Below, in pieces: positions 6,605 to 59,900 of a stretch of 61,607 nt of DNA. The position numbers were made by a program, and so were the translations under genes. The number at the start of each line of letters is the position of its first letter. Position 1 is the first letter of the stretch. Source of the DNA: Rhodoferax sp. (GTDB taxonomy: Bacteria > Pseudomonadota > Gammaproteobacteria > Burkholderiales > Burkholderiaceae_C); the NCBI RefSeq assembly GCF_025356155.1, contig NZ_JANXUQ010000007.1, positions 1 through 61,607 on the forward strand. The letters are read 5' to 3'. The notes below the pieces were generated by a model. The model made no database searches. It saw only the letters and a list, made by a program, of their open reading frames with translations, and was not told the origin of the DNA.

Positions 6605-6647
6605 AGCCCTCGCCGAATGTGCGCAAGCCACTACTGTTTTAGTAGCA
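6605..6647 (+). repeat. Repeat A, copy 1 (AGCCCTC-N17-unit)
   Basis: An intergenic copy upstream of mnmA: AGCCCTC, 17 nt, CACTA, 9 nt, TAGCA. The end forms a small palindrome (CTACTGTTTTAGTAG). It belongs to the nine-copy family described in the findings. Confidence 0.8.
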
Positions 6648-6750
6648 ATACTCGCGCGATGGCATGGCGGCCGAGGGGCACGCTCTGCCCACTTTGGCCT
6701 CTGTTATACGCCGTTCGCAGCGCTCGACGACTGTCTGCACCCATCTCATG

Positions 6751-6782
6751 AGAAAGCGGCGCCCATCTGCTGGTTGCGCCGC
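6751..6782 (-). terminator. Probable rho-independent terminator after collagen-like lipoprotein 2
   Basis: On the minus strand a perfect 7-bp GC-rich stem (GCGGCGC/GCGCCGC, 13-nt loop) is followed by TTTCT. It lies 22 nt after the stop of the lipoprotein gene ending at 6804. The T-tract is short, so termination may be partial. Confidence 0.45.
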
Positions 6783-6803
6783 CGCTGGGGTGGAAGTGCC
6801 AGC

Positions 6804-7082
6804 TTACTTTTCGGCAGGCACTACAACAACTGTATCACCGGGTTTACCGGGCTGCCCCTTTTCGCCTTGAGCGCCGGGAGGGCCTTGTGGACCGGGTACT
6901 GCAACGACGGCGCCGGGTACGACGACAGCGGGGCCGGTCGTTCCAGGAGGACCAGCCGGACCGGGCGCGCCGGCAGGACCGGGCGTCGTGACCACCACGG
7001 GAGAGGGGGGTGTGCTAGCGGGATTGCAAGCGCTTAGAAAAAATGCGGCAAGCGCAGTGGTAAGAAGAAGGGAAGTTTTCAT
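6804..7082 (-). CDS. Collagen-like repeat lipoprotein (copy 2)
   Basis: A 92-aa predicted lipoprotein. The signal peptide ends in a canonical lipobox LSAC (Cys19), followed by NPAST, the segment SPVVVTTPGPAG and then Gly-x-y triplets (PGPAGAPGPAGPPGTTGP, later GPQGPPGAQGEKGQPGKPGD) with a short hydrophobic break (VVVPGAVVAVPG). It ends in GDTVVVVPAEK. The Pro-rich x positions are more collagen-like than in its neighbour. The ATG at 7080-7082 fixes the signal peptide. Copy 1 lies 169 nt upstream on the same strand with the same architecture, so this is a tandem duplication. Function unknown; a surface-anchored triple helix is possible. Confidence 0.8.
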   Translation of the reverse strand: MKTSLLLTTALAAFFLSACNPASTPPSPVVVTTPGPAGAPGPAGPPGTTGPAVVVPGAVVAVPGPQGPPGAQGEKGQPGKPGDTVVVVPAEK

Positions 7083-7251
7083 AGTAGTCCTCATGTAGGT
7101 AGTTGACACGGACCCTACGTTAGCGAGGCTTGCGGCGCTACTCTGTGCGATGGAACACTGTGCGGTCGCCAAGCCCCGATCTTGTCGATCGGGGTAGGCA
7201 CCGCCGCGTTGTACTGCGCCGATGGTGGAGACCAAGGCGCAATCCGCCTGC

Positions 7252-7605
7252 TTACTTTTGAACCGGCACAACAACGATGGTGTCGCCAGTCTTGCCAGTT
7301 TTGCCGGTGTCGCCCTTGGCGCCGTCGTAACCCGTGGCGCCGGTCGCACCCGTGCTGCCGGTAGCGCCCGTGGCGCCTGTTCCGCCGGAATTGCCTGTGG
7401 CACCGGTAGCGCCTGTAGCACCCGTGGCGCCGGGCACGGCGACGTTGGTCCCTGTGGCGCCGGTGCTTCCGGTTGCACCGGTTGCGCCCGCGGGGCCCGC
7501 AGGGCCTGGCGTCGTGATAACAACGGGAGCTGGCGTGCTGGCAGGGTTGCAGGCGCACAGGCCCAGCGTGGTTAACAGAGCGGCGAGTAATACGGTAGTT
7601 TTCAT
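7252..7605 (-). CDS. Collagen-like repeat lipoprotein (copy 1)
   Basis: A 117-aa predicted lipoprotein: signal peptide, Cys at 19 within LCACNPAST, the segment [13 protein letters not shown], then about 25 Gly-x-y triplets dominated by GAT and GST ([16 protein letters not shown]...), with one interruption (NVAVPG). The triplets become charged ([16 protein letters not shown]) before the hydrophobic tail TIVVVPVQK. The signal region, the post-Cys residues and the tail match copy 2, while the collagen domain differs in length and composition, as expected for expanding and contracting repeats. It lies between nudJ and copy 2, all on the minus strand. Confidence 0.82.
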
Positions 7606-58347: not shown

Positions 58348-59174
58348 TGTTCGTCTCCACCATCCCGTTACGCCTGTGGTTGCTGCCAGCCGTGCTGTTC
58401 GTGCTGGGCACACCGCTGTGGCTGCACACATTTGAGCCCGCTACCTTCGTCTACCTCAACACGCTGTGCGCGCCGGTGGCTGCACCGTTGTGGACGGGCT
58501 TGTCGATGATGGGCAATGCCTGGGGCGTGCTGGCCATCACATCGCCGCTGCTGGTGCTGGCACCGCGGCTGATGTGGGCGTGGCTGTGCGCCGCGCCCTT
58601 TGCAATAGTGTTTGCCCGTGTGGGCAAGGGCCTAATCGAAAGCCCCCGCCCAGCCGCTGTGGTGGACAATGACCAGATGCGCGTGGTGGGTGAACTGCTG
58701 CACAACGTGTCGATGCCTTCCGGCCATACGCTGACGGCGTTTACCGTGGCGACCGCCCTCTATTTCGCACTGCCCCCAGCGGGCCGTGCCAGGCACCTGT
58801 GGCTGTATGTGCTGGCCGCCGGCACTGGCCTGTCGCGCATCGCAGTGGGCGCGCATTGGCCGGGCGATGTGGCGGTGGGTGCGAGCCTGGGCCTGCTGGC
58901 CGGCATGCTGGGCACGCGCCTGCTGGCCCGCATGGGCATCCAGCATTTGCAGCCCACGGCGTGGAGCCTGCGCCTGGTCGCCCTGCTGCTGGTCGCTACG
59001 GTTTACACGCTCTTGACCGATGCGCAGGATTTTGACGAAAATCAACCGCTACAGTATGTGCTGGCCCTGGTAACGGTGGGTTCGCTGGTCGCCTTTGGCA
59101 GGCAAAATTGGGCCTCCAGGGTGCGGGCGACATCGCAAGGCCCCAACCATTCATCGGAAAAGGGAAAACAATGA
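58347..59174 (+). CDS. PAP2 family membrane phosphatase
   Basis: A 275-aa protein with six helices and the three PAP2 motifs: KGLIESPRP (K-x6-RP), MPSGHTLT and GLSRIAVGAHWPGDV (SR-x5-H-x3-D). It probably dephosphorylates undecaprenyl-pyrophosphate, or a lipid A group, in step with the upstream glycosyltransferase. The ATG overlaps the previous stop and its own stop overlaps the globin-type gene start, so three genes form one operon. Confidence 0.9.
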   Translation: MFVSTIPLRLWLLPAVLFVLGTPLWLHTFEPATFVYLNTLCAPVAAPLWTGLSMMGNAWGVLAITSPLLVLAPRLMWAWLCAAPFAIVFARVGKGLIESPRPAAVVDNDQMRVVGELLHNVSMPSGHTLTAFTVATALYFALPPAGRARHLWLYVLAAGTGLSRIAVGAHWPGDVAVGASLGLLAGMLGTRLLARMGIQHLQPTAWSLRLVALLLVATVYTLLTDAQDFDENQPLQYVLALVTVGSLVAFGRQNWASRVRATSQGPNHSSEKGKQ

Positions 59175-59767
59175 ACCAAAACGCAGTTACGCTGGTGCAA
59201 GCCTCCTGGAGCAGGGTCCAGGAGCAGGGCGACGAAGCCATGGCTCTTTTTCAGCGCAATTTGCTGGAGAAACGGCCTTGGCTGACCGCTCTGTACACCG
59301 GCTATGTGGATGGGCGCGACAACATGGTCCTGCAAACCTTTGGCCGCGCCGTGATGGGTATGCATAAGCTGGACACGCACGCCGCACTGCTGATGCAGAT
59401 TGGCCGTGTCAACGCCATCTGCGGCATGCAGCCGCACCACTACCCTTACTTTGAAGTCGCGCTGATCCAGACGCTGGAGCAATTGTTGGGGGAAGACTTC
59501 TTCGCGCAGCCACTGCGTGAAGCCTGGACGGCGGTGTTTGGTACCATGACCCGGCTGGTGCTGGCTGGTGCCAATGGTCAACCTGCCGCTGCGGTGGCGA
59601 TTCGCCAAAAGGCCGCCGACCGCCGCCGCCAGCGCCGGCGGGTCGTGCATGAGCTCGGCGGCAACCGGGGCTACCACCGCCGCTCGGGTGGCGAGAGCAA
59701 CCGGCGCCTGGCCCGCGCCAGCAGCACCGGAACCAGCACACAGCGCGTCGCACAGTCAAGCGTTTAA
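59171..59767 (+). CDS. Globin-like protein without the proximal histidine
   Basis: A 198-aa protein. The globin pattern is clear (VTLVQASWSRVQEQGDEAMALFQRNLLEKRPWLTALY, then LLMQIGRVNAICGMQPHHYPYFEVALIQTLEQLLGEDFF, TAVFGTMTRLVL). When GMQPHHYP is set against the GIxPEHYP of flavohemoglobins, the heme-ligating F8 His position reads Asn (RVNAIC), so heme binding is doubtful. A basic, low-complexity tail of about 60 residues (RQKAADRRRQRRR...) follows. The start overlaps the PAP2 stop. It may be a sensor globin or a frameshifted tail; I cannot tell. Confidence 0.75.
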   Translation: MNQNAVTLVQASWSRVQEQGDEAMALFQRNLLEKRPWLTALYTGYVDGRDNMVLQTFGRAVMGMHKLDTHAALLMQIGRVNAICGMQPHHYPYFEVALIQTLEQLLGEDFFAQPLREAWTAVFGTMTRLVLAGANGQPAAAVAIRQKAADRRRQRRRVVHELGGNRGYHRRSGGESNRRLARASSTGTSTQRVAQSSV

Positions 59768-59784
59768 GCGCCTGGCTGCATCCC

Positions 59785-59827
59785 AAAAGCCTCCAAGATA
59801 CCCATTCAGGGTATCTTGGAGGCTTTT
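59785..59827 (+). terminator. Rho-independent terminator of the GT39-PAP2-globin operon
   Basis: A perfect 19-bp stem (59785-59803 and 59809-59827) with the loop ATTCA, ending in TTTT. It starts 17 nt after the globin-like gene stop. Confidence 0.9.
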
Positions 59828-59857
59828 GTACATGTGTTCAGAGTAAAAAATGCCGCT

Positions 59858-59900
59858 AGCCCTCGTCGAATATGCGTGAGTAGCTATTAAAACAGTAGCA
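59858..59900 (+). repeat. Repeat A, copy 9
   Basis: AGCCCTC, 17 nt, AGCTA, 9 nt, TAGCA. The best match to the consensus, between the terminator and the glycerophosphodiesterase gene. Confidence 0.85.

Follow-up and report, generated by a model that had tools for sequence, protein, structure and literature searches.

Sequence-selective DNA uptake has been described as established for the Neisseriaceae and for members of the Pasteurellaceae (PMC4212676). The uptake signal sequences (USS) do not originate as insertions and are bordered by AT-rich segments (PMC1626085), and the DNA uptake sequences (DUS) have dialects (PMC3630211) and are found preferentially in the core genome and not in recently acquired genes (PMC2397512). 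Here we analyse a repeated motif, AGCCCTC-N18-GCTA in its simplest form, in a 61,607-nt stretch of DNA from Rhodoferax sp. (contig NZ_JANXUQ010000007.1; the whole stretch is hereafter the window) and in related genomes of the Comamonadaceae. In the genomes that we studied closely, this signal of about 65 bp is present in several hundred copies per genome, bears the marks of being read as double-stranded DNA, is spelled in species dialects, and arises inside genes mostly by base substitution rather than by insertion, the exception being a loop in a gene that is presumably proA. By inference, we interpret the motif as a putative long DNA uptake signal of the DUS/USS kind, a reading to which we give an even chance.

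Like the USS of the Pasteurellaceae, the motif originates by substitution within genes, has a specific core with AT-rich flanks, lacks orientation bias and comes in types specific to subclades (PMC1626085), and like the DUS of the Neisseriaceae it shows species dialects, and it may share with them a preference for the core genome and scarcity in acquired DNA (PMC3630211, PMC2397512). However, the USS has a 9-bp core, occurs about once per kb and is spaced more regularly than random, whereas the present motif spans about 65 bp, occurs once per 6.6 kb, has a random-like spacing, and differs in sequence and in family. DUS measure about 10 bp and have no flanking motif (PMC1626085), and, unlike the DUS dialects, the present motif is not tracked by ComP-like pilins. 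Because of its length, lower density and random-like spacing, we do not file it as a member of either class, but we think that it most probably functions in the manner of one.

Repetitive extragenic palindromic (REP) sequences and bacterial interspersed mosaic elements (BIME), with their REP-associated tyrosine transposases (RAYT), form species-specific families of hundreds of extragenic palindromes in both orientations. The motif shares with them the copy number, the species-specific families and the two orientations; unlike REP, it also lies in native codons, shows no covariation in its stem, and falls wholly within predicted genes in 25 of 61 cases in Rhodoferax bucti (G033) and 23 of 51 in a second relative (G006). 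Pairs of short motifs were reported in a survey that we take to be that of Tong, Schliekelman and Mrazek (2017). Two of them resemble portions of the present motif: ATAGCT(N)22CAAAAG, with 125 copies in Polaromonas naphthalenivorans, and GCTTAT(N)5AAGCG, with 114 in Acidovorax ebreus. Rhodoferax ferrireducens has, with 140, the most motif pairs among the genomes surveyed (PMC5217627). The survey offers the pairs (81% and 94% intergenic) as candidate new motifs and assigns them no role, and in the available part of the survey we did not encounter the dialects, the substitution origin or the full-length motif (PMC5217627). The BRE repeat also occurs in Comamonadaceae and sometimes inside genes, but it measures about 90 bp, has 69% GC in Bordetella and is in tandem at some loci (PMC3110155), the two being set apart here by description only. 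Within the open-licence PMC literature, we recognised no publication that describes the full motif or gives it a role.

The window holds the nine copies listed in the original prediction (Table 1). AGCCCTC-N18-GCTA matches eight times exactly and once, at 6605, with one mismatch, the two minus-strand copies spanning 22022-22050 and 46398-46426 in this pattern, while shuffles of the window at one mismatch gave a mean of 0.83 and a maximum of 4 matches, none of 100 reaching nine. The nine copies are also the nine top scores among about 123,000 positions for a profile from which the 11 anchor bases had been dropped and which was trained on 61 copies from elsewhere in the same genome. A genome-wide search, suggested in the original prediction, established the excess: the window's own genome (G000; 5.09 Mb, 318 contigs, listed contamination 6.23%) has 464 exact copies, 242 forward and 222 reverse, and no match to the reversed pattern. 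The fixed internal spacing noticed in the window is kept in relatives, 111 of 112 model matches in R. bucti and G006 being ungapped. By contrast, the proposed unit of 43 nt proved too short, as it is the middle of a motif of about 65-70 bp whose conserved positions, numbered from AGCCCTC, run from roughly -24 to +45 (38, then 77 copies aligned).

The specific core of this motif, approximately TRGCSCYCG-N7-TGCGYRAGCAGCTAY, is flanked by A/T tracts, at -12 to -9 and 31 to 34, and by a TAGCA box. Profile matches with E<0.01 in 400 kb each number 61 in R. bucti, a density of one per 6.6 kb, and 51 in G006, where the spelling is approximately WWWW-n-GGCCTCTRGCGCCCGTGGAATRTGCGCRAGCAGCTAYnWWW-nnRTAGCAA in both; the same profile found no match in the reversed sequence of either genome (400 kb each). 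Dependence between columns is almost wholly local, and the strong couplings join near neighbours, above all -11/-10, which read AA or TT in 63 of 70 copies of the window's genome and in 102 of the 112 R. bucti and G006 copies, a set that includes orthologous pairs and is not independent. Positions 33/34 are AA or TT in 90 of those 112 against 43 of the 70, AT being common (20) and TA rare (4) in the window's genome. The coupling of 35 with 44, nine bases apart, lies slightly above the shuffle maximum, but not as a base pair. Across the apparent palindromes, the arms show no covariation and no more pairing than the composition of the columns leads one to expect, with the limit that many arm columns do not vary, or served to locate the copies of the window's genome, and are uninformative on pairing. 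Since neighbour dependence appears without pairing, recognition of double-stranded DNA through A/T tracts, rather than of a stem, is suggested. The original description of the unit as palindromic is only weakly true; its proposal of an RNA stem is not supported, and its alternative of a DNA-binding footprint is supported.

The dialects were compared by running models of both spellings on both copy sets. At base +3, 69 of 70 copies of the window's genome have C and 98 of the 112 copies from R. bucti and G006 have G, and the two spellings are counted at 31:1 in the window's genome, 7:170 in R. bucti, 7:172 in G006, 21:69 in OS-4 (G001), 136:2 in G014 and 149:0 in G361. Any match to the two spellings was found in 15 and 12, respectively, of 30 chosen genomes, with all reversed controls at zero. 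At the leuS site, base +3 follows the majority of its own genome in 11 of 13 genomes, judged by eye and uncorrected for shared ancestry, the exceptions being G012 and G014. A third, palindromic spelling, a longer form of the perfect inverted repeat GCGCTT-N7-AAGCGC, occurs in 15 of 200 family genomes, with at most 40 copies and none in the control; a pattern search for GCGCTT-N7-AAGCGC found none in the 17 loci examined. The exact pattern of the window's genome, with its 464 copies, occurs 5, 2 and 0 times in three genomes of the same genus, which have 28, 99 and 36 matches to the right-half pattern. We considered a recent burst in one genome and rejected it, because those three genomes carry other spellings and the difference therefore reflects dialect. 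G017, G031 and G003, of the same GTDB genus, and R. lacus (G363) have no match to either dialect pattern. These four form a natural contrast set for finding a recognising protein.

Within genes, the motif overlays native codons at leuS and benE (leucyl-tRNA synthetase and BenE by Pfam) and at the first of the two proA sites. When the window's ProA was aligned with 39 of 80 loci (n=40), this first site lay without a gap in all 40 proteins, its codons being motif-like and AT-rich in many Rhodoferax-type species and GC-rich in Limnohabitans and Acidovorax. The BenE site, read on the antisense strand, likewise consists of native codons and is aligned without a gap in 25 of 26 relatives (26 of 27 loci; the single gap is in L059). 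For LeuS, among the sequences listed from an alignment of 85, L051, L052, L065 and L138 are of equal length without the motif and more distant relatives such as Limnohabitans are shorter at the site. The offset of the leuS motif is different in L064 and L071, which are Polaromonas-like, and the motif therefore probably had a separate origin in them. The idea that proA site 1 was the source of the whole motif family was dropped once the leuS and benE sites proved native too. At the second proA site, a loop, 20 of the 40 sequences measure 1317-1353 nt against 1275-1278 nt in the 12 shortest, a variable expansion of 42-78 nt. A different repeat-like insert, reading approximately AVRAEPVEG, is found in the same loop in L049, L064, L071 and L110.

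The comparison with genomes that lack the motif extends this picture. R. bucti has 88 profile matches in 560 kb, and no motif at E<0.1 was found in 175 kb of R. lacus together with 60 kb of G017, G031 and G003. Of the 31 R. bucti matches in the range that the R. lacus contig could cover, 20 were not alignable; the other 11 comprise six sites of equal length (within 6 nt), three shorter by 7-39 nt and two shorter by at least 40 nt in R. lacus, one of these two being the proA loop. Comparison with G017, G031 and G003 added nine cases, of which four were equal, two shorter by 7-39 nt and three shorter by at least 40 nt, all three at the proA loop. Each of the six equal-length sites lies in an open frame, and the five that were scored range from +25 to +59 bits in R. 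bucti and from -28 to -46 in R. lacus. At the site in a gene that we take to be glpK-like, 21 of 23 residues are identical between the two species, with 15 synonymous codon changes. About four in ten copies fall entirely within predicted genes; whether the motif serves uptake or binds an intracellular protein, a signal at the level of DNA has therefore shaped codons in many genes, including leuS.

The places of the motif are kept between species. R. bucti and G006 are 83.2% identical where aligned, and 47 of 72 R. bucti matches (E<1) have both flanks aligned in G006, with 44 filled and three not, two of the latter being equal in length and one longer. In the other direction, 46 of 57 sites are aligned and all 46 are filled. 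Neither the 47 nor the 46 sites include a clean empty/filled pair; target duplications were not separately searched. For the window's genome, 5 of 69 sites could be compared with these two species, all in G006, and three of them are filled (leuS, L136:381 and L136:3885) and two are not, L118:4520 being one of the latter.

By an open reading frame (ORF) filter made for this analysis, 25 of the 61 R. bucti matches lie between genes, 25 lie inside predicted genes (13 in sense and 12 in antisense orientation) and 11 lie at gene edges; the corresponding numbers for the 51 of G006 are 17, 23 (10 sense, 13 antisense) and 11. There is a reading-frame bias, position 0 being the third codon base in 18 of the 25 in-gene copies of R. 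bucti. The orientation of 98 matches in 680 kb of G006 is 49:49 by chromosome arm and 46:52 by the sign of local GC skew, and this absence of strand bias ruled out a replication-oriented motif such as Chi or FtsK-orienting polar sequences (KOPS). In the second replicon of OS-4 (120 of 305 kb) no match fell below E 0.05, against 17.3 expected, and two partial matches had E 0.066 and 0.099. Islands of G006 that did not align hold 5 of its 51 motifs against 14.9 expected (p=8e-4).

We favour an uptake signal because the motif combines an origin by substitution, flanking A/T tracts, stable places and dialects with a lack of strand bias and with its absence from the part of the second replicon that was examined. 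In such a system, a surface receptor of the type IV pilus or competence machinery would prefer DNA of its own dialect, and transformation followed by homologous recombination would spread good copies across the core genome and conserve them, through molecular drive together with selection, and the bending of the DNA during uptake would be eased by the A/T tracts. ComEC is present in all 18 genomes searched. Transformation in the Comamonadaceae has been reported as selective without a named signal: in Verminephrobacter eiseniae it requires type IV pili and is resistant to unrelated competitor DNA, and only DNA of its own species transformed Acidovorax temperans (PMC4212676).

Several observations weigh against this interpretation. 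The motif is far longer than known DUS and USS and, at one per 6.6 kb, about 6-7 times sparser, and its spacing is no more regular than chance (coefficients of variation of the gaps 0.91 and 0.87 against 0.98 and 0.97 for random positions; p 0.30 and 0.23). ComEC is found just as much in genomes without the motif. All 20 genomes searched, motif-bearing and motif-free, have ComP-like pilins (PF16732), and those of G006 and R. bucti differ strongly despite a common dialect; as candidate receptors the pilins were set aside as not discriminating. In R. bucti, unaligned islands hold 13 of 61 motifs against 17.4 expected, which is not significant (p=0.13), 11 of the 13 lying in one 54 kb run that ends the compared range; unaligned means here without a match within the compared 400 kb only. 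Nor are phages wholly free of the motif, since the viral contig L230, with terminase and primase genes, has copies at 8695-8732 and 11187-11242, one of them in the primase; these may reflect mimicry of a host tag or recombination with hosts. In IMG/VR, nine contigs, L230 among them, match the right half of the R. bucti type and none matches the pattern of the window's genome, whose near relatives possibly lay outside the search. The second proA site involves a change in length, and at L118:4520 of the window's genome the flanks adjoin in G006, which is compatible with insertion or deletion. Finally, the species-limited transformation of Acidovorax can also be explained by poor homology for recombination.

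The original prediction regarded the motif as mobile and moved in trans, and a non-autonomous repeat of the REP type or like a miniature inverted-repeat transposable element (MITE), moved by a transposase such as RAYT and with its in-gene copies domesticated, would account for the high copy number and the species-specific consensus; the window's genome has six matches to PF01797, the proA loop is expanded in half of the aligned sequences, the flanks of L118:4520 adjoin in G006, and 2 of 11 sites are shorter by at least 40 nt in R. lacus. We nevertheless consider it improbable. The comparison of empty and filled orthologous sites, which the original prediction had proposed, yielded no clean pair in either direction between R. 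bucti and G006, with L118:4520 and the expanded proA loop as observations on the other side; on this result and the equal-length sites of R. lacus, we reject a mobile element for most copies. For the coding copies the idea is largely refuted, the codons at leuS, benE, proA site 1 and the glpK-like site being native, and the second-replicon DNA examined has no match below E 0.05. The proA loop varies in length and does not change by one unit, and the arms do not covary. A RAYT mobiliser was rejected, as the six PF01797 loci (15.7 kb in total) show no association with the motif: two hold one copy each, about the background density, and none is flanked by it on both sides within the 2-3.4 kb around each. 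Templated overwriting, in which multicopy single-stranded DNA or a similar template recombines into partly matching sites and rewrites them, would explain by inference the patches of substitution, the homogeneity of dialects and the two orientations, but nearly every change at the glpK-like site is synonymous, unlike the work of a blind writer without strong selection, and we regard it as very improbable. We think just as little of an RNA element (a hairpin, terminator or processing site) selected in transcripts: the motif is partly palindromic, GCGCTT-N7-AAGCGC perfectly so, and many copies lie outside genes, but its pairs do not covary, a ground on which RNA structure was rejected, in-gene copies are sense and antisense in like numbers (13:12 in R. 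bucti, 10:13 in G006), and Rfam gives no match in the window at the gathering threshold.

The main competitor to an uptake signal is a binding site for an intracellular protein of the nucleoid or of chromosome organisation, which would coat the chromosome or form loops in it, with dialects arising from co-evolution of protein and site. The length of the motif and its A/T tracts are suggestive of a nucleoprotein complex with wrapped DNA, nothing below E 0.05 occurs in the second-replicon DNA examined, positions are conserved, and the sequence data are fitted without any uptake specificity. On the other hand, hundreds of sites would be hard to re-spell without drive, there is no order in strand or spacing, G017, G031 and G003 of the same genus match neither dialect pattern, and the depletion in islands is not obviously required; on balance, we judge it unlikely, if clearly worth keeping in view. 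Binding of such a protein would bring to light an uncommon system that spans the chromosome through hundreds of long sites. If the motif is instead an uptake signal, genome sequences could reveal the barriers to gene exchange between species in a family common in fresh water and soil, and a new receptor could be discovered. We would tentatively go further, with somewhat less than even confidence, and propose that the Comamonadaceae may be a third bacterial family with its own DNA self-recognition signal for natural transformation, independent of the DUS of Neisseria and the USS of Haemophilus, the longest known to us (about 65 bp, with A/T tracts), and with at least three dialects (AGCCCTC, RGCGCNC and the palindromic GCGCTT-N7-AAGCGC) that would mark species barriers to DNA exchange.

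Table 1. Positions, strands and surroundings of the nine motif copies in the window
Copy	Position	Strand	Context	Remark
1	6581..6650	+	Intergenic	Context from the mechanical ORF list only
2	7752..7821	+	Between ORFs	11-nt overlap with the 3' end of ORF 7811-8299
3	22005..22074	-	Antisense in leuS, native coding sequence	Same-length, motif-free relatives
4	33648..33717	+	Intergenic	
5	39428..39497	+	Sense, native codons near the start of proA	Weakest of the nine
6	40289..40358	+	Sense, variable loop of proA	Loop expanded in many relatives
7	46381..46450	-	Antisense in benE, native coding sequence	
8	48141..48210	+	Intergenic	
9	59834..59903	+	Intergenic	Best-scoring of the nine

The window contains other repeats. 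A GC-rich repeat, CTGCCCCCC..GGGGGC..GGGGCGGCCCG, which may be the BRE of PMC3110155, lies at 19713-19757, 22234-22278 and 42220-42264; the one at 22234 forms an in-frame insertion within LeuS, and similar inserts are found in L051, L138 and L139. On the minus strand, 6804-7663 holds an array of 9-nt periodic repeats in ORFs that, by eye, are collagen-like (Gly-X-Y).

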